The notes under the pieces are model-generated. The model was not told the origin of the DNA. It saw nothing but the letters and a program-made list of their open reading frames with translations, and ran no database searches. A stretch of DNA of 64,000 bases, taken from Chloroflexota bacterium (GTDB taxonomy: Bacteria > Chloroflexota > Anaerolineae > Aggregatilineales > Phototrophicaceae). The stretch lies in NCBI GenBank assembly GCA_028875245.1, contig JAPPEU010000019.1:62001-126000 (forward strand), written 5' to 3'. This document shows, one piece after another, positions 8,029 through 23,806 of the stretch (position 1 is the first letter of the stretch; each line of letters begins with the position of its first letter). The position numbers and the translations under genes were made by a program.

Positions 8029-10107
8029 ATGTTGGGAAAACTGAATTATCCCGTGACGCGCCGCGTCGACGTGGCGGATGACTTTTTCGGCACTTTGGTC
8101 GCAGACCCTTACCGCTGGCTGGAAGAGGCCGACGATCCCGAAGTGCTGGAATGGACGCGGCAGCAGCACGAACTGGCGATGGAAGCGCTGAATGGCTTGC
8201 CCGGGCGCGCTGCGTTTGAAGGTCGGCTGCGCGAGGTATGGGGCTATCCGCAACACGGCATCCCGCGCAAACGCGGCGACAAGCTCTTCTACATGCGCAA
8301 TGATGGCTTGCAGGCGCAGCCCGTCCTCTATGTGCAAGAGGGAGACAAGCCCGAACGCGCCCTGATCGACCCCAACACATTTAGCGAAGACGGCGCCGTG
8401 GCGATATTCGATTGGCAGCCGACGGGCGACGGGCGGCTGGTGATGTACGCCCTCTCGGATGGCGGGCTGGATTGGGTCCACTTTCGCTTTCGCGATGTAG
8501 AAAGCGGCGAAGATCTGGCGGACAAACTGGCCAGGCTGAAGTTCTCGTCGGTGGCCTGGCGCAAAGATGGCTCGGGCTTCTTCTACAGCCGATACACCGA
8601 CGGCGCGCCAGACGAAGGCCCCGAGAATCCAACCGTGTCTTACCAGGTCTACTACCACAAACTTGGGACGCAGCAGGCCGACGACAAACTGATCTATGCT
8701 GATCCGCGGCGCAAAGGCATCCAGTTGGCGGCCGCGGTCAGCTCGGATGATCGTTTTCTCATTCTCGATATCACATGGGAATCGCGGATTGCCAATCGCC
8801 TGTATTACCGACCGATTGACGATGAAGGCGATTTTGTTCGACTCTTTGACGAGCTGGATGCGGAATATCGTTTTATTGGCAACGATGGCGATATCTTTTA
8901 CATCCTGACGACGAATGGCGCGCTGAATTGGCGCGTGGTCGCGGTGGATATCAAGAATCCGGCGAGTGACAATTGGGTGGATGTGGTGCCGGAAAGCGAG
9001 GAAGCCATCGCCGGCGTTTCGATCGTTAATCAGCAGTTTGTGGTTACCGCGATGCGCCTCTCCCGACATGTGATCAAGATCTACCGCAAAGACGGCTCAC
9101 TTGATCGCGAGCTGCTCCCGCCGGGGATGGGCGCTGTGGCCGAGCGCGAGCAGGCCGGCGCTTTTGGCGGGGCTAAAGATGACAAGATGTTCATCGCCTG
9201 GACCTCGTTTTTGCAGCCGACGCAAATACTGCAATATGACTTTGCCACCGGCGATTTGGCGCCTTTTTTCAGCGCGACCGCGCCATCGTTCGATCCCGAG
9301 CAATACGAAACGCGGCAGGCATTCTGCCCGTCTCAAGATGGCGCGAAGGTTCCAATTTTCATCACCTGCAAAAGGGGGTTGGAGCTGAATGGCGACAATC
9401 CGGCCATCATGTATGCCTACGGCGGTTACAGCTTCAGTCAAACGCCGAGTTACCGCGAATGGCTGCCGGTCTGGTTGGAAAACGGCGGGATATTCGTCGT
9501 CGCCAATATCCGCGGCGGAGGCGAATACGGCGAAGCCTGGCACCGCGCCGGCATGTTCGCTGGCAGGCAGAGGACCTACGATGACATTCACGCGGCGGCG
9601 GAATGGCTGATCGAGAACAGATACACCTCGAACCGGAGGCTGGCGATTGAGGGCAGGAGCAATGGTGGCTTGCTGGTGGCCGTCTGCATGCTGCAGCGTC
9701 CCGACTTGTACGGCGCGATTCTCTGCCACGTGCCGACCATTGATATGCTGCGCTTCAAATACTTTACATCCGGGCGCTATTGGACGACCGAATATGGCGA
9801 CGCCGAAAAGAGCAAGGAAGCCTTCGAGTATCTGACCGCCTACGGTCCGCTGCACAACATCAAGGCCGGCCAAGCCTATCCGCCCATCCTGATTCTGACG
9901 GCCGATCATGATGATCGCGTTGTGCCGATGCACTCGAAGAAGCTCGCCGCCGCCTTGCAGCAGGCGGATGAGAGCGACAATGTCATTCTGCTGCGCGTCA
10001 CCACCAGAGCCGGCCACGCGCTGGGTAAAGCGACCTACAAGTTGATCGAAGAACAGGTGGATATCTTTGCTTTTCTCAATCACGTTTTTGATATGGGCGT
10101 GGAATAG
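8029..10107 (+). CDS. Prolyl oligopeptidase (S9A)
   Basis: 692 residues starting at ATG 8029, with GGAAGAGGA at 8013-8021 as ribosome site; a TTG at 8011 is less likely. The N-terminus (LNYPVTRRVDVADDFFG, then VADPYRWLEE) is the classic prolyl oligopeptidase opening. The central part is a seven-blade propeller. The catalytic domain has GGGEYGEAWHRAGM, the nucleophile Ser544 in EGRSNGG, Asp in TADHDDRVVPMHS and His in RAGHALGK. The enzyme cleaves short peptides after proline in the cytoplasm. It follows the DPP-IV-like gene by 77 bases and completes a peptide uptake and breakdown cluster. Confidence 0.95.
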   Translation: MLGKLNYPVTRRVDVADDFFGTLVADPYRWLEEADDPEVLEWTRQQHELAMEALNGLPGRAAFEGRLREVWGYPQHGIPRKRGDKLFYMRNDGLQAQPVLYVQEGDKPERALIDPNTFSEDGAVAIFDWQPTGDGRLVMYALSDGGLDWVHFRFRDVESGEDLADKLARLKFSSVAWRKDGSGFFYSRYTDGAPDEGPENPTVSYQVYYHKLGTQQADDKLIYADPRRKGIQLAAAVSSDDRFLILDITWESRIANRLYYRPIDDEGDFVRLFDELDAEYRFIGNDGDIFYILTTNGALNWRVVAVDIKNPASDNWVDVVPESEEAIAGVSIVNQQFVVTAMRLSRHVIKIYRKDGSLDRELLPPGMGAVAEREQAGAFGGAKDDKMFIAWTSFLQPTQILQYDFATGDLAPFFSATAPSFDPEQYETRQAFCPSQDGAKVPIFITCKRGLELNGDNPAIMYAYGGYSFSQTPSYREWLPVWLENGGIFVVANIRGGGEYGEAWHRAGMFAGRQRTYDDIHAAAEWLIENRYTSNRRLAIEGRSNGGLLVAVCMLQRPDLYGAILCHVPTIDMLRFKYFTSGRYWTTEYGDAEKSKEAFEYLTAYGPLHNIKAGQAYPPILILTADHDDRVVPMHSKKLAAALQQADESDNVILLRVTTRAGHALGKATYKLIEEQVDIFAFLNHVFDMGVE

Positions 10108-10136: not shown

Positions 10137-10907
10137 TCAGTTTCCTTTTCGCCAGTACCAATACTCGCGTAGATTCTTGTAGGGTACGCTAGAGTCTATG
10201 GCACGAGCCATATCCTTAGTCAAATAGTTTCTCCAGTAGTGATTGAAAATCGGCTCTCCCAGTTTCGCGAATACTCCATCGCCATTGACCAGAGCTTTTA
10301 TGTTCTTGATTGACCCGATATTCTTCGTATTTCCACTACCAAGTTTGTCAGAGGCAATTTTCCATTTTTCGTGCAGCAAAGTTTCAAAGTCATGCGCAAC
10401 GGATTGAATATTCTGCAATTCCTCAAGTTCAAAAATAGACTGCTCATCAATCCGGTCTTTGTTTCGCGAGTATATGATACCTAATACGTAATGATTCTTA
10501 TATTCGTGGTAAGGGAAAGATATGTTTTTGGTCGAGTCTCGTTCTCTAAAATATCCAGTAAATGCTCCTAGTGTTAGTCCGCTCACAGACCTCTTGTTGG
10601 CTCGGTAAGTACTTTTCAAGTCGAAAGCTATCATGTCTCCGCTAGATTCGATGAACGTAACGTCGGGATAGTGGTTCTGATGCTCAGCCAAATGCAGTTC
10701 ATAATCGTAGCGTCGTGCAAACTCTGAGATAAGCGGGAAAAGCATTAGCTCGATCAGTTTCGATATAACTTTGGTGTCAGCGGAGATAGTGTAGATGTTG
10801 CTATATGTATCAATGAATCCCTTTATGACCCAATCTCCGATGTCGTTTGCTAGAGTAGCTTCGATCATCGGCAGGTATTCGCGCATCTGACGTTCAAAAT
10901 CTGACAT
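10137..10907 (-). CDS. Type II restriction endonuclease, EcoRV family
   Basis: 256 residues with extended similarity to R.EcoRV as I recall its sequence. Shared features include DTKVISKLIEL (EcoRV DTKVLSTIFEL), QNHYPDVTF (QNHYPDFTL), FDLKSTY (IDIKTTY), TKNISFPYHEY and LGSGNTKNIGSI (AGSGNTTNIGSI). The PD-(D/E)xK residues are Asp82, Asp96 and Lys98. The recognition-loop residues Gly190-Ser-Gly-Asn-Thr194, which in EcoRV contact GATATC, are conserved, so the same or a very similar target is expected. The gene begins 3 bases after the methyltransferase stop and shares its strand. Base composition is visibly more AT-rich than the flanks, a sign of horizontal transfer. Confidence 0.93.
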   Translation of the reverse strand: MSDFERQMREYLPMIEATLANDIGDWVIKGFIDTYSNIYTISADTKVISKLIELMLFPLISEFARRYDYELHLAEHQNHYPDVTFIESSGDMIAFDLKSTYRANKRSVSGLTLGAFTGYFRERDSTKNISFPYHEYKNHYVLGIIYSRNKDRIDEQSIFELEELQNIQSVAHDFETLLHEKWKIASDKLGSGNTKNIGSIKNIKALVNGDGVFAKLGEPIFNHYWRNYLTKDMARAIDSSVPYKNLREYWYWRKGN

Positions 10908-16424: not shown

Positions 16425-16817
16425 ATGAGTATCATTTTGAGAAGTTTCCGCACTTGGTGGCAGCGGCCGCGCAATATCAGCGAGCGTTCTGAACATCGGC
16501 AGGTCTCTTTCTTGGAGTTGTTTTATGATCTCGTGTATGTGGTTTTGATTGCCGAATTGACCCACGCGCTCGCCGCTCATATTGATTTGCAGCATATCGC
16601 GGAATTCTCTTTTCTGTTCATTATTACCTGGTGGGCTTGGTTAAACGGGACGGCTTATCATGATCTTCATGGCAACAATGACATCCGCACCCGCGCATTC
16701 ACCTTTCTGCAAATGTTCACCGTAGCGGCGATGGCGGTGTTCGCTCATGACGCGCTGGGCGAGACTTCTTCGGGATTTGCTTTATCGTATGCCGGCTTTC
16801 AACTCATCTTAACTTTT
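16425..16817 (+). pseudogene. ltrA-like gene, 5' part (interrupted by the IS)
   Basis: The first 131 codons of a low-temperature-requirement A family membrane protein: SFLELFYDLVYVVLIAELTHAL, recognisable by FLELFYDLVYVV, then FSFLFIITWWAWLNGTAYHD. The frame runs into the insertion element after LILTF and stops 21 bases inside it. Joining 16817 to 19363 restores an uninterrupted frame (LILTF then LWWRTGVHDP) of about 404 residues. LtrA proteins are multi-pass membrane proteins of unknown biochemical role. Confidence 0.93.
16810..16817 (+). repeat. 8-bp target-site duplication, left copy
   Basis: TAACTTTT immediately outside the left end of the IS; the same 8 bases occur at 19355-19362 immediately outside the right end. 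Confidence 0.95.
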
Positions 16818-16853
16818 GGCGATTATATCGCAAACTAAACAGGCGCTTGAAAA

Positions 16854-17036
16854 TCACCTGCGCTTCTGCGGCTTGTCTGCATCCTTGAGGTACTGCCACT
16901 CGAAGCCCGGCTTGTTGGGATTCAGCTTAAATGCCGCCTTAGCTACATCCGCAGGGTCAGCGTCTATCAGATCGGGAAACTGGAGCGGCGGACGACCTAC
17001 CGGCCGCTTCGACTTAGGCTTCTTGCCTTCGCTCAT
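16854..17036 (-). CDS. 60-residue basic protein with AT-hook-like motif (IS passenger)
   Basis: A very basic small protein beginning MSEGKKPKSKRPVGRPPLQ; KRPVGRPP resembles the AT-hook DNA minor-groove motif. The rest (DADPADVAKAAFKLNPNKPG) has no known domain I can name. Its ATG overlaps the stop of the methyltransferase in an ATGA arrangement (17033-17036), so translation is probably coupled. The end lies only 12 bases inside the left inverted repeat. Role unknown; DNA binding is inferred from the motif. Confidence 0.7.
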   Translation of the reverse strand: MSEGKKPKSKRPVGRPPLQFPDLIDADPADVAKAAFKLNPNKPGFEWQYLKDADKPQKRR

Positions 17037-17971
17037 TGTTGTAACCTCTTGTTGCGAATAACGATACGAGAATACTTCTCTTTACCAGCAATCCAAAAAC
17101 AACTTACCTTGCCGGTTAATTTGGTCATTATAGGTCGGTCCAGCCCAATAATCTCAAATTGTTCTGGGCTATGTTTGTCTAAGAAACTAATCGGTACGCC
17201 CATTTCGCCAGTCCAATCCATCGGAATCTCAGCAATCTTCGACACCTCAATCGCGTCGTAGTTGTCGTAATGAGGATATTCACCAAAAGAATATCGCTTG
17301 TATAAAATCAAGTCTTCATGTCTTTGCCTATAGTCAAGATTCGTAAACCACCTAGCATTGCCCATCTTGCTAGGTACGCCCGCAGGTGTATCAAATTGCA
17401 TGACACCTCTATTAACACCAAGCCAAAGCATCGAGTTCTCTATCACTGGGAAAATATCCCGATACTTTACGGCGTTCAAAGGGGCAATAACCAAAAATTG
17501 TTTCTCGTACTCAACCAGTTGCGCGACATATTCGCGGAAGAGCGAAAAGGGCGGATTCGTCACAACTATGTCTGCTTGCTTCAATAACTCAACACATTCT
17601 GCACTTCTGAAATCTCCATCGCCTTCGAGATAGTGAATGCCGATGTCCTCGACTGAGGGTACGCCGGTCTCGTTCTCCGTCCCATCGTATTCCAGCCAGA
17701 TCGCTCGCTCACTATCATGCTGGCTAAACATATCTATTTGCTGATTCTTGTAGCAGGTGGTAATTAGCTTCTTCAATCCGAGGACGCGAAAGTTATAGGC
17801 GAAGTAATGAAAGAAGTTGCTCACTCGCGGGTCATCACAGTTGCAGTAGACGACCTTTCCGCGAAAGTGGGCGGTGTAATGGCGGAGTTCATTTTCAATA
17901 TCGACAAGCTGCGTATAGAACTCGTCTCGCTTGTTTGCTTTGGCTTTATGCAAGTTTTGATTCGCTGACAT
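17033..17971 (-). CDS. Adenine-specific DNA methyltransferase, EcoRI type (IS passenger)
   Basis: 312 residues of the EcoRI-methylase family (N6-adenine). Features: HKAKANKRDEFYTQL near the start, the cofactor-binding region VVYCNCDDPRVSNFF (about 40-54) and the catalytic motif IV NPPF (139-142) in VVTNPPFSLFREY, followed by APLNAVKYRDIFP. No EcoRI-like endonuclease is nearby, so it is an orphan carried by the IS. Its ATG at 17971 lies 3 bases after the transposase stop, and its own stop overlaps the next gene. It may protect the element or host from restriction, or mark DNA for transposition; both are guesses. Confidence 0.9.
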   Translation of the reverse strand: MSANQNLHKAKANKRDEFYTQLVDIENELRHYTAHFRGKVVYCNCDDPRVSNFFHYFAYNFRVLGLKKLITTCYKNQQIDMFSQHDSERAIWLEYDGTENETGVPSVEDIGIHYLEGDGDFRSAECVELLKQADIVVTNPPFSLFREYVAQLVEYEKQFLVIAPLNAVKYRDIFPVIENSMLWLGVNRGVMQFDTPAGVPSKMGNARWFTNLDYRQRHEDLILYKRYSFGEYPHYDNYDAIEVSKIAEIPMDWTGEMGVPISFLDKHSPEQFEIIGLDRPIMTKLTGKVSCFWIAGKEKYSRIVIRNKRLQQ

Positions 17972-17974
17972 AAC

Positions 17975-18910
17975 CTAGTCCGCAATCAAGTCCTCGTAAC
18001 GCAACCGCTTGCCTGCGCCATTCCGAGCAATGCTCGCCATCTGATGCCGCGTATCCAAGCTCCGCGCATTATGCCGCCCAGAAAACTCATTCACGTACCT
18101 TTGCAGGTGTTTATCGCTCATTTTGTGGTAAGTGCCATGATAGCCGCGCTTCATCAGGCTCCAAAATGATTCCAGCCCGTTTGTGTGCGCTTGCTGACGA
18201 ACATACTCGCCGACTGAATGGCTAACCGCCCTGTGCTTGCGAGCCATGCCCTTATATGCCCGCGCTTCGTCTGTGTAAACGATAGCGTTCTCGGTCGTGT
18301 TGTCTTCGATTATGCTGTGCAAGGTCGGGCGGTCTACCGCTTCTACCACCTGCGCTTGCACATTGCCACTGTCGCGGCCTAGGACACCGACTACAGCCGT
18401 CTTGCCGACAGTGCCACGTCCGGCGTGCAACTTCTTGTGCGCGTGCTTGTTACCCTCTTTGCCACCGATATAGGTTTCATCTACCTCGACTTCACCATAG
18501 AATGGCTCGCTGTCCAAGTTCCACGCTTCGCGTATCCGGTGCGCCATGTGCCAAGCCGTCTTCTGCGTTACGCCAATATCCCTGTGCAACTTCATGCTGG
18601 ATACGCCCTTGATGCCAGTTGTCATTAGGTAAATCGCTATCAGCCACTTTTGATAGCCGACTTTGGAACTGTGCATGAATGAGTTGGTCTTGACACTGAA
18701 ATGCTTGCGACAATCGCGGCAATGAAAGGGCATTTGCGGATGCGTGGATTCGCTGACATTATCGCCTTCGCAATGGGCGCAACGGATGTTGTCGCCCCAT
18801 CGGTTCTCGATAAACCATGCCTCGGCGGTCTTGTCGTCAGGGAATTGCTGAAACAATTGCATCAACGTAATGCCCTTGCGGAAGTGCTTGCCCGGTGCGT
18901 TCTGTGCCAT
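17975..18910 (-). CDS. IS1595-family transposase (ISXO2-like DDE)
   Basis: 311 residues. A zinc ribbon is formed by Cys44, Cys47, Cys64 and Cys67 (CAHC...CRDC). A helical segment follows (GIKGVSSMKLHRDIGVTQ). The DDE/N-type core shows Asp144 in VEVDETYIGG, Asp214 in VYTDEARAY and Glu247 in NGLESFWS, then KRGYHGTYH and the C-terminal RYVNEFSGRHN, all standard in the IS1595 family. It appears intact. It is the second gene of the element's minus-strand operon. Confidence 0.96.
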   Translation of the reverse strand: MAQNAPGKHFRKGITLMQLFQQFPDDKTAEAWFIENRWGDNIRCAHCEGDNVSESTHPQMPFHCRDCRKHFSVKTNSFMHSSKVGYQKWLIAIYLMTTGIKGVSSMKLHRDIGVTQKTAWHMAHRIREAWNLDSEPFYGEVEVDETYIGGKEGNKHAHKKLHAGRGTVGKTAVVGVLGRDSGNVQAQVVEAVDRPTLHSIIEDNTTENAIVYTDEARAYKGMARKHRAVSHSVGEYVRQQAHTNGLESFWSLMKRGYHGTYHKMSDKHLQRYVNEFSGRHNARSLDTRHQMASIARNGAGKRLRYEDLIAD

Positions 18911-18978
18911 TGCTAATCCCTATCGCTTAATATATGAACAATACTAAACGATTTCGCAGGGATTGTCAAGCGCGAGTT

Positions 18979-19194
18979 TTACTGATTTTCGAGGCGCTCT
19001 AAGCGTTTGATGATCTCTTTATGCGCTGTAGCTGACGCATTCAATACCTCATCAAAGCGCTCATTAAGTTGCGGCATGATTTCATCCTCGAATACTTCGC
19101 GCACAACTTGCTTGGTGTTATACCTTTGCCTTTCAAGGAACTCCTTAACTTCGACGTCAGACAGCTTCTTGCCGGGGCCGCCAATGTTTTGCAT
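18979..19194 (-). CDS. 71-residue predicted coiled-coil protein (IS passenger)
   Basis: Starts at ATG 19194, chosen because AAAGGAG lies about 7 bases upstream on the minus strand; a longer frame to 19224 lacks one. The N-terminal MQNIGGPGKKLSDVEVKEFL is followed by a charged amphipathic region (VREVFEDEIMPQLNERFDEV, then EIIKRLERLENQ) likely to form helices or a coiled coil. No family recognised. It is the first gene inside the right end of the element, upstream of the transposase. Confidence 0.65.
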   Translation of the reverse strand: MQNIGGPGKKLSDVEVKEFLERQRYNTKQVVREVFEDEIMPQLNERFDEVLNASATAHKEIIKRLERLENQ

Positions 19195-19354
19195 ATCTAG
19201 CTCCTTTCGGATTAGACTTGTCAAGATTGTAACCGTTTTGAGATCGGGCGGCTAATAAAATCGTCTATAGTGTTTCTCAAGTATGTCAATCCTTAGACGA
19301 GATTACCTGTCGCCAGTTTCATCCTCCCGCTGTTTAGTTTGCGATATAATCGCC

Positions 19355-19362
19355 TAACTTTT
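19355..19362 (+). repeat. 8-bp target-site duplication, right copy
   Basis: TAACTTTT directly after the right inverted repeat, matching 16810-16817. Confidence 0.95.
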
Positions 19363-20184
19363 TTATGGTGGCGCACCGGCGTCCATGATCCGGATCATCG
19401 GCCCTTGTCGCGCCCCTACGCGCTTGCCTTTCTCATCACCACGCTGTTATTTGTCGCCTCCGTCTTTATTGAGCCGCCCCACAGATTTTACATCTGGATT
19501 GCCGCTACCTTGATATCCGTTGTGCTGCCGCTATATCTCCTCCGTTTGGGGCGCAAAACTCCGGCCGTGCAAACGCAGATTGAATTGAGCATGACGGTGA
19601 CCGCGTCATTGGTGGAGCGTTTTGGGCTTTTTACGATCATTGTGCTTGGCGAGGTCATTGTTGGCGTTGTTCACGGGCTGGCGGGGCGCCACGACTTACA
19701 TTGGCGGGCAGGCGGCATTGGCGCCTTGGGCATGACGATCGCCTTCGGCACATGGTGGCTGTATTTTGACTTTGTATCTCATCGCATTCCGCGTCGAGGT
19801 ACGATGTGGGTTTATTTATGGTCTTACGCGCATTTACCGGTGACGGCCGGCATCGCTATGGTTGGGGCTGCTATCGTGAATGTCGTCGAACAGGCCACCG
19901 AGCCACTGCCGGTTGAGGTCCGCTGGCTGCTGGTCTGCGCGATTGGCATGGTGCTTGTCGGCATCACGCTGATGATCCGCTCGCTGCGACCGCCGCAAAC
20001 GGGTTTTGAGCAATTGCGCCGGCTGAGCCAAATGGTGATTTTCCTGGTCGCCATCGTCATTTTCGCTCTGGGTTTCTCGACGCTGGGGACGATTCCTCTG
20101 CTCGCTGCCATTGCCGTTTTGATGCTGGCGCCGGTCGCATTCGGTCTCATTCACTGGATAAAACGCATTGAGCCGTCTTCTTGA
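19363..20184 (+). pseudogene. ltrA-like gene, 3' part
   Basis: The remaining 273 codons of the LtrA-family protein, beginning LWWRTGVHDPDHRPLSRPY and including about seven hydrophobic helices and the conserved HDLHWRAGGIGALGM region. It continues exactly in frame from 16817 once the element and one copy of the duplication are removed. A TTG inside the IS right end (19339) could start a truncated product, but there is no reason to think one is made. Confidence 0.93.
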
Positions 20185-20273: not shown

Positions 20274-20309
20274 ACGTGATTGAACAGATTTTCTATAGGA
20301 GCGAGCTAC

Positions 20310-21101
20310 ATGTACAAGGTGAGCAAGTACCCGGCGGGGACCTTCAGCTGGGCGGATAACACATCAACAAATGCCGACGCAGCAAAAGCCTTTTATATGG
20401 ATCTGTTCGGCTGGGGCGCGCTGGACATGCCGATCGGCGAAGACATGTTCTATACCATGTTTCAGAATCAAGGCGAGCATGCGGCCGGCTTCGCCGCGAT
20501 GATGCCTGATATGCAGGCGCAGGGCATGCCTTCGCATTGGACGAACTACGTGTCGGTCGACGATGTGGATGCGCTTGCTGAAGTCGTCACCGCGAATGGC
20601 GGGACGATCTTGTTTGGTCCCATGGACGTATTCGACAGCGGCCGCATGCTGCAATTTATGGACCCGACTGGCGCGGCGCTCGGCTTGTGGCAGGCGAAGA
20701 ATCATATCGGCGCGGGCATCGTCAATACGGTCGGCGCCATGTGTTGGAACGAGCTGCTCACGCGGGACGCGGAAGCCGCCAAAGCCTTTTACAGCGCGCT
20801 CTTCGGCTGGGAATACATCACTGACGAGAATGGCTACATCATGATTCAGAATCGGGGCCGCAACAATGGCGCCATGATGCAGATGGATGAGAGCTTCGGC
20901 GAGATGCCATCGATGTGGCAGCCCTATTTCACCGTTGGCGACATTGACGAATCGATCGGGCGCGCGGCAGAATTGGGCGCGCCTATCATCATTCCGAAGA
21001 CGGAAGCGCCCGGCGCCGGGCACTTCGCCTATATGGCTGACCCGGCCGGCGCTCACTTTTATATCATTCAGCTGATCCAGGCTGAGCCTTGGGGCGAGTA
21101 G
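20310..21101 (+). CDS. VOC-family protein, paralogue 1 of 4
   Basis: 263 residues from ATG 20310, supported by AGGAG at 20297-20301. Two vicinal-oxygen-chelate domains (about 1-125 and 135-262), each with the pattern AAKAFYMDLFGW / AAKAFYSALFGW, a xxHWTNYVSVDDVDAL strand and a closing xDPxGAxxxLxQ strand (MDPTGAALGLWQ, ADPAGAHFYIIQ). The family includes glyoxalase-like enzymes, extradiol dioxygenases and drug-binding proteins. Bacterial double-VOC proteins of this size are usually annotated only as VOC family. First of four tandem paralogues on the same strand. Confidence 0.9.
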   Translation: MYKVSKYPAGTFSWADNTSTNADAAKAFYMDLFGWGALDMPIGEDMFYTMFQNQGEHAAGFAAMMPDMQAQGMPSHWTNYVSVDDVDALAEVVTANGGTILFGPMDVFDSGRMLQFMDPTGAALGLWQAKNHIGAGIVNTVGAMCWNELLTRDAEAAKAFYSALFGWEYITDENGYIMIQNRGRNNGAMMQMDESFGEMPSMWQPYFTVGDIDESIGRAAELGAPIIIPKTEAPGAGHFAYMADPAGAHFYIIQLIQAEPWGE

Positions 21102-21135
21102 GGGGCGGTTTGTCGGCGTGACCAAGTTGGCGCCA

Positions 21136-21162
21136 AAGGGCGAGTCACCGCCTCGCCCCTAC
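21136..21162. repeat. GGGGCGA...CGCCCCT palindrome
   Basis: AAGGGCGAG and CTCGCCCCT form a short hairpin between VOC genes 1 and 2. It belongs to the dispersed GTAGGGGCG-type palindromes found about ten times in the window. Confidence 0.7.
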
Positions 21163-21203
21163 GAAAGCTAGCAATTGCGACGCCCGCGTGGCAGGAGAGC
21201 GAC

Positions 21204-21992
21204 TTGTACACAGTAAGCAAATATCCTCACGGTACATTTAGCTGGGCGGATAACTCTTCAACCGACTCGGCGGCCGCCGGGCAGTTTTATATGGATCTCT
21301 TCGGTTGGGGAAAGATCGATATCCCCATCGGCGAAGGCATGACCTACACCATGTTCCAGCACCAGGGCCAGCATGTGGCCGCGCTGAGCCATGCGACGCC
21401 GGCGGCGCTCGCGCAGAACATCCCCTCGCACTGGTCATGCTATGTGGCTGTCGATGACGTCGATGCGCTGCTGCCGCAGGTCACGGCGAATGGCGGCCAG
21501 ATCGTGTACGGGCCGATGGATGTCTTCGACAGCGGACGCATGGCTTTCTTGCTGGATCCCGAAGGAGCGGCGCTGGGCTTGTGGCAGGCGCGCAATCACA
21601 TCGGCGCGGGCATTGTCAACACGGTCGGCGCCATGTGCTGGAACGAGCTGCTCACGCGCGACGCCGAGGCCGCCAAAGCCTTCTACGCCGCCGTCTTCGG
21701 CTGGGAGTTCCATGACCATGAGCATTACATCGACATCCGCAACCAGGGCCGCGGCAACGGTGGCATCATGCAAATGGATGACAGCTTTGGCGATACGCCG
21801 GTCTGCTGGATGCCCTATTTCAACATCGGCGACATCAAGGCGGGCATCGCGCGGGTCAATGAGTTGGGCGGGGCTGTGCATACAGGACCGCATGAAGTGC
21901 CGGGCACGGGTTATTGGGCGCTGGCGACAGACCCGGCCTGCGCGCACTTTTATATTTTGCAGCCCTTCAAAATCGACCCTTGGGAAGAATAG
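21204..21992 (+). CDS. VOC-family protein, paralogue 2 of 4
   Basis: 262 residues beginning at TTG 21204, with GCAGGAGAG just upstream; the encoded start (YTVSKYPHGTFSWADNSS) aligns with its neighbours, so the TTG is credible. Two VOC domains as in paralogue 1. Its central DNA (about 21290-21690) is nearly identical to that of paralogue 3, which implies recent duplication or gene conversion, while the 3' end differs (HEHYIDIRNQGRGNGGIMQ). Confidence 0.9.
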   Translation: MYTVSKYPHGTFSWADNSSTDSAAAGQFYMDLFGWGKIDIPIGEGMTYTMFQHQGQHVAALSHATPAALAQNIPSHWSCYVAVDDVDALLPQVTANGGQIVYGPMDVFDSGRMAFLLDPEGAALGLWQARNHIGAGIVNTVGAMCWNELLTRDAEAAKAFYAAVFGWEFHDHEHYIDIRNQGRGNGGIMQMDDSFGDTPVCWMPYFNIGDIKAGIARVNELGGAVHTGPHEVPGTGYWALATDPACAHFYILQPFKIDPWEE

Positions 21993-22020
21993 CTGGCGCC
22001 ACCGCAAAACTTAATCTTTG

Positions 22021-22045
22021 CAGGGGCGAGCCGGTGTCTCGCCCG
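22021..22045. repeat. GGGGCGAG...CTCGCCC palindrome
   Basis: CAGGGGCGAGCC and GTCTCGCCCGC pair across a short loop between VOC genes 2 and 3. Confidence 0.6.
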
Positions 22046-22112
22046 CAGCCGGGACAGAGAATTCGCAATTGTGAGTCTAGCATCGCGCCGTCAGATTATC
22101 AGGAGACAAAAT

Positions 22113-22901
22113 ATGTACACGGTAACGAAGTATCCTCATGGCACATTTAATTGGGCCGATTCCAGCTCGACAAATTCGGAGGCAGCCAGGCAGTTTTACA
22201 TGGATCTCTTCGGCTGGGGCAAGATCGATATCCCCATCGGCGAAGGCATGACCTACACGATGTTCCAGCACCAGGGCCAGCACGTCGCCGCGCTGAGCGA
22301 CGCGACGCCGGAGGCGCTCGAGCAGAACATCCCTTCGCACTGGTCATGCTATGTGGCTGTCGATGACGTCGATGCGCTGCTGCCGCAGGTCACGGCGAAT
22401 GGCGGCCAGATCATCTATGGACCCACGGATGTCTTCGACAGCGGACGCATGGCTTTCTTGATGGATCCGGAGGGCGCGGCGCTGGGCTTGTGGCAGGCGC
22501 GCGACCACATCGGCGCGGGCATTGTCAACACGGTCGGCGCCATGTGCTGGAATGAGCTGCTCACGCGTGACGCCGAGGCCGCCAAAGCCTTCTACAGCAA
22601 ACTACTGGGCTGGGAATATTACGGCGATGAGCATTACATCCACATCAGCAATCGCGGCCGCAACAATGGCGGCATGATCGAGATGGACGAGAACTTCGGC
22701 GAGATGCCGCCCATGTGGATGCCCTATTTCCATGTCGCGGATATCGACGCGGCGATGAAACGGGTCGAGGAGTTGGGCGGGCGCGTCGTCACACAGAAGA
22801 TGGAAGCGCCCGATACCGGCTGGTTCACCGTCGTCGAAGATCCGGCCGGCGCCGTCTTCTATATCATGCAGCTCGTCAAGGCGGATCCCTGGGAAGAATA
22901 G
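22113..22901 (+). CDS. VOC-family protein, paralogue 3 of 4
   Basis: 262 residues from ATG 22113 with AGGAGA about 8 bases before it. Two VOC domains; the sequence FNWADSSSTNSEAARQFYMDLFGW differs from paralogue 2 mainly at the ends, seen in ADSSSTNSEAARQ. Second domain retains EAAKAFYSKLLGWEYY and EDPAGAVFYIMQ. Same strand and regular spacing (about 120 bases) as the other copies. Confidence 0.9.
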   Translation: MYTVTKYPHGTFNWADSSSTNSEAARQFYMDLFGWGKIDIPIGEGMTYTMFQHQGQHVAALSDATPEALEQNIPSHWSCYVAVDDVDALLPQVTANGGQIIYGPTDVFDSGRMAFLMDPEGAALGLWQARDHIGAGIVNTVGAMCWNELLTRDAEAAKAFYSKLLGWEYYGDEHYIHISNRGRNNGGMIEMDENFGEMPPMWMPYFHVADIDAAMKRVEELGGRVVTQKMEAPDTGWFTVVEDPAGAVFYIMQLVKADPWEE

Positions 22902-22962
22902 GCCGAGACCGATCAGTATAACGTAATTTGACGGAAAACGCCCCGTTAACTTTGCGTTTGCT

Positions 22963-23003
22963 CCCCTCCCTGACTTGTCGGCTGAGGGGCCGGGGCTGGG
23001 GTT
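22963..23003. repeat. C-rich/G-rich palindromic intergenic repeat
   Basis: CTCCCCTCCC ... GAGGGGCCGGGGCTGGGG between VOC genes 3 and 4; same class as the repeat at 3497. Confidence 0.6.
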
Positions 23004-23029
23004 TGGCGCGCTTTCAGGAAGCGTCTCGA

Positions 23030-23806
23030 ATGTACACAGTGACAAAGTATCCGCACGGGACCTTCAGCTGGGCCGATAACAGCTCGAGCGAGCCGGACGC
23101 GGCCAAAGCCTTTTATATGGCGCTTTTCGGCTGGGGGGTGACGGAGTTCCCCCTCGGCGGCGGCATGACCTACACCATTTTTAATCTGGCGGGTCATGAC
23201 TGCGCGGCTTTGAGCGGCATGGCGCCGGATCAGTTGGGGGCGGGCGTCCCCTCTCAATGGAACAACTTTGTCACTGTGGATGATGTGGATGCCCTGGTTG
23301 ATGTGCTGCGTGCCAATGGCGGCGAGGTCATCTATGGTCCGGAGGATGTCTTCGATAGCGGGCGCATGCTGCATATTCAGGATCCAACCGGGGCCCGGCT
23401 CAATTTGTGGCAGCCCTATGACACGATCGGCGCCGAGATAGTCAACACGGTCGGCGCGATGAGCTTGAATGAGCTTTGGACGCCCGATGTCGCCCGGGCG
23501 AAAGTTTTCTACCATGCCCTCTTCGGCTGGGAATACGAGTTGGATGGCGTCTTCACACGTATCTTCAATCGCGGGCGCTTCAACGGCGGCATGCTTGAAC
23601 TGACGGACGTCGAGCCGATCTGGCTGCCGCATTTCCACGTCGCCGATGCCGGCGCCGCCATGAATCGCGTCAAAGCCCTCGGCGGCGCGATCGAAATCCC
23701 GCTGCAAGTCGACCCCGACGGGGCGCGCTGGTCTGTTGTGGCGGACCCGGCCGGCGCTCTCTTCTACGTCATGCAGCTCGTAAAGGCCGATCCCTGGCTG
23801 GAGTAA
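23030..23806 (+). CDS. VOC-family protein, paralogue 4 of 4
   Basis: 258 residues from ATG 23030, with CAGGAAG at about 23014-23020 as ribosome site; the frame is open upstream through a palindromic repeat that is not expected to be coding. Two VOC domains (DAAKAFYMALFGW; RAKVFYHALFGWEYEL; ADPAGALFYVMQ). It is the most diverged of the four, with shortened loops, so it is likely an older duplicate. Confidence 0.9.
   Translation: MYTVTKYPHGTFSWADNSSSEPDAAKAFYMALFGWGVTEFPLGGGMTYTIFNLAGHDCAALSGMAPDQLGAGVPSQWNNFVTVDDVDALVDVLRANGGEVIYGPEDVFDSGRMLHIQDPTGARLNLWQPYDTIGAEIVNTVGAMSLNELWTPDVARAKVFYHALFGWEYELDGVFTRIFNRGRFNGGMLELTDVEPIWLPHFHVADAGAAMNRVKALGGAIEIPLQVDPDGARWSVVADPAGALFYVMQLVKADPWLE

Follow-up and report, generated by a model that had tools for sequence, protein, structure and literature searches.

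An IS1595-Family Transposon with an M.EcoRI-like Methyltransferase, from a Transposase Branch that Recurrently Carries Restriction–Modification Genes

Introduction

How does a DNA methyltransferase with no nuclease beside it come to lie between the ends of an insertion sequence (IS), and what might it do there? The question is raised by a 64,000-nucleotide stretch of a Chloroflexota genome (assembly GCA_028875245.1, contig JAPPEU010000019.1, positions 62,001 to 126,000; hereafter the window), in which an element of the IS1595 family splits the gene ltrA and carries an M.EcoRI-like adenine methyltransferase. An original prediction made from the sequence had singled out this element as a freshly inserted carrier of an orphan, EcoRI-type methyltransferase. 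We consider it likely that this is a passenger-bearing, autonomous transposon of the IS1595 family, belonging to a branch that has repeatedly captured methyltransferases and whole restriction–modification (R-M) modules behind the transposase gene, the copy in the window holding the methyltransferase only. What had appeared to be a single curiosity exemplifies a pattern that recurs.

Anatomy of the Element

The element measures 2,537 bp and occupies positions 16818-19354 of the window (Table 1). Its ends form a perfect inverted pair, for which simple arithmetic gives a chance of about 3e-9 in 2.8 kb, and they are flanked by a direct duplication of the target. When the element and one copy of the duplication are deleted in silico, a single LtrA frame of 405 residues results, and the two halves of the interrupted gene match complementary parts of PF06772 (positions 2-105 and 104-353). 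Two congeners, G415 and G445, provide natural empty sites and show 83% and 77% identity, respectively, over the joined flanks, and the uninterrupted ltrA of G415 has a single TGACTTTT at the corresponding place. The original prediction of a complete IS1595-type element, with its perfect 25-bp ends, 8-bp duplication, and reading frame restored on excision, thus proved right to the base, and the empty ltrA sites that it proposed to look for were found. Its description of the insertion as fresh fares less evenly, as the intact ends, duplication, and genes agree with it and the presence of a single copy in the assembly does not. The further copies that it had also proposed to look for did not appear in the host genome: the ends of the element have no other occurrence in its 4.2-Mb assembly when up to 3 mismatches are allowed.

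Assignment to the IS1595 family rests on both ends and protein. The hallmark ends of about 25 bp beginning GG and the 8-bp target duplication are present; the ends of relatives read GG(G/C)..TTATAT, and the duplication is 8 bp in most relatives whose boundaries could be set. The transposase scores well above the NF033547 cutoff (194.2 bits against 75) and exceeds those of PF12762 (124.5 against 27) and PF12760 (27.3 against 25.4), with a domain match that spans the whole domain length. The methyltransferase gene, an additional gene not of the transposition kind, lies inside the ends, which makes the element a tIS.

The methyltransferase gene starts 3 nt after the transposase stop codon and its own stop overlaps the start of orfA by 4 nt, so that transposase, methyltransferase, and orfA look like one operon. 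No nuclease gene or relic of one is found in the element, where a 60-residue open reading frame (ORF) alone lies beyond the methyltransferase, and in this respect the label of orphan holds. The remaining ORF, orfB, has no family above cutoff among the Pfam, NCBIfam, and PADLOC models and may or may not be a real gene.

Table 1. Features of the element and of the interrupted ltrA gene, in window coordinates
Feature	Position	Strand	Basis
5′ part of ltrA, with the left duplication copy at its end	16425..16817	+	PF06772 E=5e-28; one continuous frame (405 residues) with 19363-20184
Left 8-bp target-site duplication, TAACTTTT	16810..16817	.	single copy (TGACTTTT) in G415 empty site
Left terminal inverted repeat (IRL), distal to transposase gene, GGCGATTATATCGCAAACTAAACAG	16818..16842	.	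perfect 25-bp match to 19330-19354
orfA, 60 residues, basic N-terminus, AT-hook-like GRPP motif	16854..17036	-	ORF list and homologues
M.EcoRI-like adenine methyltransferase, 312 residues, without nuclease partner	17033..17971	-	PF13651 E=1.4e-121; PADLOC MTase_II 4e-114
IS1595-family transposase, 311 residues	17975..18910	-	NF033547, PF12762, PF12760
orfB, at most 81 residues from a TTG; an ATG in the same frame lies about 30 nt inward	18979..19224	-	ORF only
Right terminal inverted repeat (IRR), transposase-proximal	19330..19354	.	perfect 25 bp
Right 8-bp target-site duplication, TAACTTTT	19355..19362	.	
3′ part of ltrA	19363..20184	+	PF06772 E=6e-38

The Methyltransferase and Its Family

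The PF13651 match to the methyltransferase runs over its full length, and no relative of solved structure was found by sequence. Among 87 relatives, 90 columns are conserved to at least 95%; the window enzyme deviates in two of them, by the conservative changes I161V and G163A. With 88 of these columns kept and the NPPF motif intact, the enzyme looks intact and not dead, and it is probably active.

The usual partner of this family is not the one that its name suggests. When 84,980 species genomes were scanned at the protein level, at least 577 relatives of the methyltransferase emerged; the best 80 of them were retained, and 87 loci of the family were examined for neighbors. A gene combining a GmrSD_N (DUF262) domain with an HNH domain lies nearby in 74 of the 87, most often directly downstream, and its product corresponds to the PADLOC model REase_II (PDLC03418, 1e-142). 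An endonuclease of the EcoRI fold is absent from the element in the window, and the partner seen in relatives is the GmrSD_N-HNH protein; the recurrence of this neighbor marks the family as the modifying half of a type II R-M pair with a nuclease unlike EcoRI. The term EcoRI-type therefore stands for the enzyme as a full-length PF13651 homologue and does not extend to its partner, and the proposal that the element protects its host against EcoRI-type systems is not supported as worded.

The host genome itself holds a complete methyltransferase and GmrSD_N-HNH pair on another contig (C49). A clade of 26 rows (99% support) takes in the window copy on the methyltransferase tree; its remaining named genomes are Chloroflexota, and the nearest sequence by path is the C49 copy. 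A third M.EcoRI-like gene of the host lies near the end of contig C39 (L111:5298-7394) and is truncated by it; a 438-residue ORF of no assigned family follows in place of the usual nuclease. Unusual gene rows occur elsewhere in the family as well. At L037:8204-11885, fragments of the nuclease N-terminus begin at 8204, 8868, and 9861, ahead of a full gene at 10794, all between methyltransferase and nuclease, in what looks like serial insertions duplicating the start of the GmrSD_N-HNH gene. Two other loci (L053:4978-9048 and L098:1152-5430) have three M.EcoRI-like genes in a row with one GmrSD_N-HNH nuclease.

Other members of this methyltransferase family also ride on IS1595 elements. Transposase, methyltransferase, and GmrSD_N-HNH nuclease are found together inside IS1595 ends at four loci: L075, from Gammaproteobacteria and with perfect 27-bp ends; L050, from Rhodothermaceae; L251, another element of the L050 genome; and L303. 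A fifth locus, L102, has a transposase fragment immediately upstream of the methyltransferase. Target-site duplications were not found at L075 and L050, which we therefore take to be old or rearranged copies. The IS-borne state changes five times on the methyltransferase tree, meaning that the family was captured by transposons more than once. The original prediction had staked itself on the existence of other elements with a methyltransferase inside matching termini; there are these four and about 20 more with other methyltransferases.

The four elements with both genes also lend some support to a different account, in which the window methyltransferase is left over from a full R-M module on a transposon that lost its nuclease; the gene would now have no selected role and would be bound to decay. 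Frameshifted cargo in three further elements (L160, L168, and L182) would likewise fit such decay. The window gene, however, is intact and keeps nearly all conserved residues, the nuclease has left no trace, and the methyltransferase is seated tightly between its two neighbors. Its closest kin are chromosomal Chloroflexota pairs and not other IS-borne copies, and a pan-genome survey found that solitary methyltransferases seldom arise by decay of complete systems (PMC4176335). On balance, we regard a decaying remnant as unlikely.

A Transposase Branch with Exchangeable Cargo

Does the association extend beyond this one methyltransferase family? Searches with the transposase alone covered three samples, drawn from the phyla of the host (400 genomes), of L075 (299 genomes), and of L050 (297 genomes), and elements were bounded in the fetched surroundings by inverted ends and mostly 8-bp duplications. 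Most bounded relatives are cargo elements of 2-5 kb and not bare insertion sequences. The architecture recurs in all three samples: a DNA methyltransferase is carried by 10 of 27 bounded elements in the host phylum, 1 of 5 in the L075 phylum, and 6 of 18 in the L050 phylum. The overall figure of 17 in 50 is free of selection for the M.EcoRI-like family, and 15 of the 17 calls have a Pfam or PADLOC match or clear homology to such a match; the L305 call rests on an NPPW motif with PADLOC negative, and that of L303 on homology to the window methyltransferase.

The cargo comprises at least six unrelated methyltransferase types, most of them with a nuclease domain or gene. N6/N4 methyltransferases are fused to Mrr_cat (L154 and L300), joined by HNH (L160, L163, L164, L168, L169, L182, L301, and L307), or paired with a PADLOC REase_II protein (L180, 4.5e-44). 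A D12 (Dam-like) enzyme occurs with PDDEXK_11 (L185), and C5 methyltransferases occur with GIY-YIG (L157), with an NgoFVII-type nuclease (L246), or alone on viral contigs (L148 and L150). Type I-like methyltransferases are accompanied by HSDR_N and specificity domains (L244 and L298) or stand alone (L259), and M.EcoRI-like enzymes occur with or without their nuclease. Among five transposase relatives in IMG/VR, two have C5 methyltransferase cargo. In named plasmid records the best transposase relatives reach at most 46% identity, and none of the three inspected has a methyltransferase adjoining the transposase, a result in line with an association limited to one branch. Three of the R-M-carrying elements (L303 at 3315 bp, L246 at 3200 bp, and L298 at 4714 bp) make up whole contigs, as would be expected of collapsed multicopy repeats or circular forms.

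Such a pattern could in principle arise if the methyltransferases were chance passengers, picked up through the general mobility and abundance of R-M genes in these genomes. Other cargo does occur (Panacea-domain, trypsin-like, PIN, and DUF3800 genes), and genomes can be rich in methyltransferases, as the 36 PF01555 matches of the host attest. Corrected for density, however, the account falls short: 14 source genomes have 140 PF01555 matches in 46 Mb, a density at which the first sample, with 54 kb of cargo, should yield 0.16 matches, and 8 are observed (P ~1e-11). The association is also confined to one part of the tree of 62 transposases, where the branch that includes the window copy has methyltransferase cargo in 24 of its 44 elements, against 1 of the 18 others (Fisher p = 4e-4); the fraction of 24 in 44 is somewhat inflated by the inclusion of genomes picked for the M.EcoRI-like family. 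Together with the recurrence of same-strand coupling to the transposase gene, these results make chance carriage distinctly improbable. The host count (G000, 36 matches in 4.2 Mb) is above those of all 13 other genomes searched, which range from 1 to 19.

Repeated capture by this transposase branch is further reflected in the way that cargo is exchanged. The transposase tree shows 16 changes of cargo class, and cargo is swapped even between close transposases: a well-supported clade of five elements that includes the window copy holds an M.EcoRI-like methyltransferase, a C5 enzyme paired with an NgoFVII-type nuclease, a type I-like methyltransferase with specificity subunit, an N6/N4 methyltransferase, and one unrelated cargo. 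In 16 of 21 codirectional cases no more than 3 nt separate the transposase stop codon from the methyltransferase start, or the two genes overlap, commonly by 4 nt; this close spacing suggests translational coupling.

Close coupling in most of the methyltransferase-bearing elements is also what one would look for if the enzyme tuned transposition of its own element by methylating the ends or the transposase promoter, in the manner of Dam for IS10 and IS50; Dam control of these and of IS903 is established (PMC9296519). This idea leaves the unrelated methyltransferase families and nuclease partners of sister elements unexplained. Moreover, the window element contains no GAATTC, so that a methyltransferase of M.EcoRI specificity could not act there. 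We judge self-tuning to be very improbable. The window as a whole shows no avoidance of GAATTC (30 sites observed, 26 expected).

A Companion Protein and a Second Element in the Host

The small gene orfA accompanies the branch across differing cargo, with homologues in 14 of 34 bounded elements. A profile of the protein found 13 places in 201 genomes of the host phylum. In at least nine of them the contig also holds an IS1595 transposase no more than about 3 kb away, and another adjoins a PF01555 methyltransferase; OrfA is nearly confined to IS1595 cargo elements. It has no match in Pfam, NCBIfam, or PADLOC. Its start is basic, with a KRGRPP that we read as an AT-hook-like motif, and OrfA may serve as an accessory factor that binds DNA at AT-rich ends or targets.

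A second IS1595 element lies on contig C7 of the host genome (L117:6739-9503, about 119738-122502 of the contig). It has perfect 25-bp ends GGGGCTTATATCGCAAAGTGCCACT, a duplication AAATGAAA, an OrfA homologue, and other cargo, and its transposase is 67% identical to that in the window. Adjoining ltrA, at window positions 20280-23806, are four consecutive and closely similar genes of about 260-290 residues (MYKVSKYPxGTFSWADN...), an apparent tandem family expansion that by eye is glyoxalase/VOC-like.

Proposed Roles of the Carried Genes

Several observations weigh against reading the element as an active passenger transposon from a branch with repeated methyltransferase capture, in addition to the selection effect already given with the tree. 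The window element is single-copy in its host assembly, 33 of the 50 bounded relatives have no methyltransferase, and the carried methyltransferase genes are frameshifted in several elements (L160, L168, and L182). The window enzyme is also shorter by about 25 residues in a variable region, one in which all members differ, and its specificity may consequently differ from that of the C49 pair or be altered.

With a passenger transposon as the working model, the transposase would act on the ends and move the whole cassette as a unit, and the methyltransferase, made from the same transcript, would protect host DNA. In versions with both genes, the nuclease would stabilize the transposon by punishing its loss and would restrict incoming DNA; by analogy with other R-M systems, such a pair would be an addiction module working through postsegregational killing (PMC3031569). 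For the window copy, judged on sequence, the most likely role would be to shield host and element against nucleases of R-M systems of the same family, such as the C49 pair. A methyltransferase-only element with this protective effect would act as a transposon-carried antidote.

A more far-reaching proposal, which we advance tentatively and hold to be possible rather than probable, is that this IS1595 branch is a specialized and wide-ranging R-M carrier that swaps unrelated modules behind a coupled transposase, keeps a dedicated AT-hook-like protein, and accounts for a large share of the unexplained R-M turnover, with methyltransferase-only copies serving as mobile antidotes against R-M addiction. 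R-M systems come and go rapidly in genomes, yet a large survey found them to be rare on plasmids and in phages and left the source of their turnover an open question (PMC4176335). Small R-M-carrying transposons with defined ends, duplications, empty sites, and swappable cargo offer a concrete and testable vehicle for it. A transposon with its own addiction module would change models of IS persistence, and methyltransferase-only versions would be natural antidotes. Enzyme discovery could draw on these elements as well, for compact candidate R-M pairs.

Comparison with Known Systems

Passenger-bearing members of the IS1595 family are known in tISSag10/MTnSag1 and tISCpe8, which share with the window element an IS1595-type transposase, 25-bp ends, and an internal passenger (PMC5704250). 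Those are mobilizable elements, tISCpe8 carrying lincomycin resistance, whereas the elements described here recurrently carry methyltransferases or R-M modules and a small AT-hook-like protein. We found no account of IS1595 elements with R-M cargo in the literature searched; the paper of Siguier et al. 2009 (Res Microbiol), which defines the family and its passengers, was outside the search, so an earlier mention of methyltransferase passengers is possible.

R-M genes that travel with transposable DNA, as they do here, have been described for the putative mobile element of PluTI, a transposon-like R-M system of Rhizobium leguminosarum, and the IS-linked movement of PaeR7I (PMC3031569 and its references 20 and 21). 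In PMC3031569, chromosomal IS1 and IS5 moved a plasmid-borne R-M system and composites with flanking IS copies were described; here, in contrast, transposase and R-M genes form one IS-sized unit in a tight gene row, with many methyltransferase families. The type II pair of a PF13651 methyltransferase and a GmrSD_N-HNH nuclease, represented in the host by the C49 locus (L110), has its methyltransferase family in common with the window element, which differs in holding the methyltransferase only. Tn7-like transposons also carry defense cargo that includes R-M systems (PMC8649781), but they do so with multigene transposition machinery and much larger cargo, whereas a single transposase and 2-5 kb suffice for the elements described here. 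IS1595 passengers and transposon-borne R-M systems have thus been known separately, and this comparison suggests that the new part is a transposon branch in which the R-M cargo is interchangeable.

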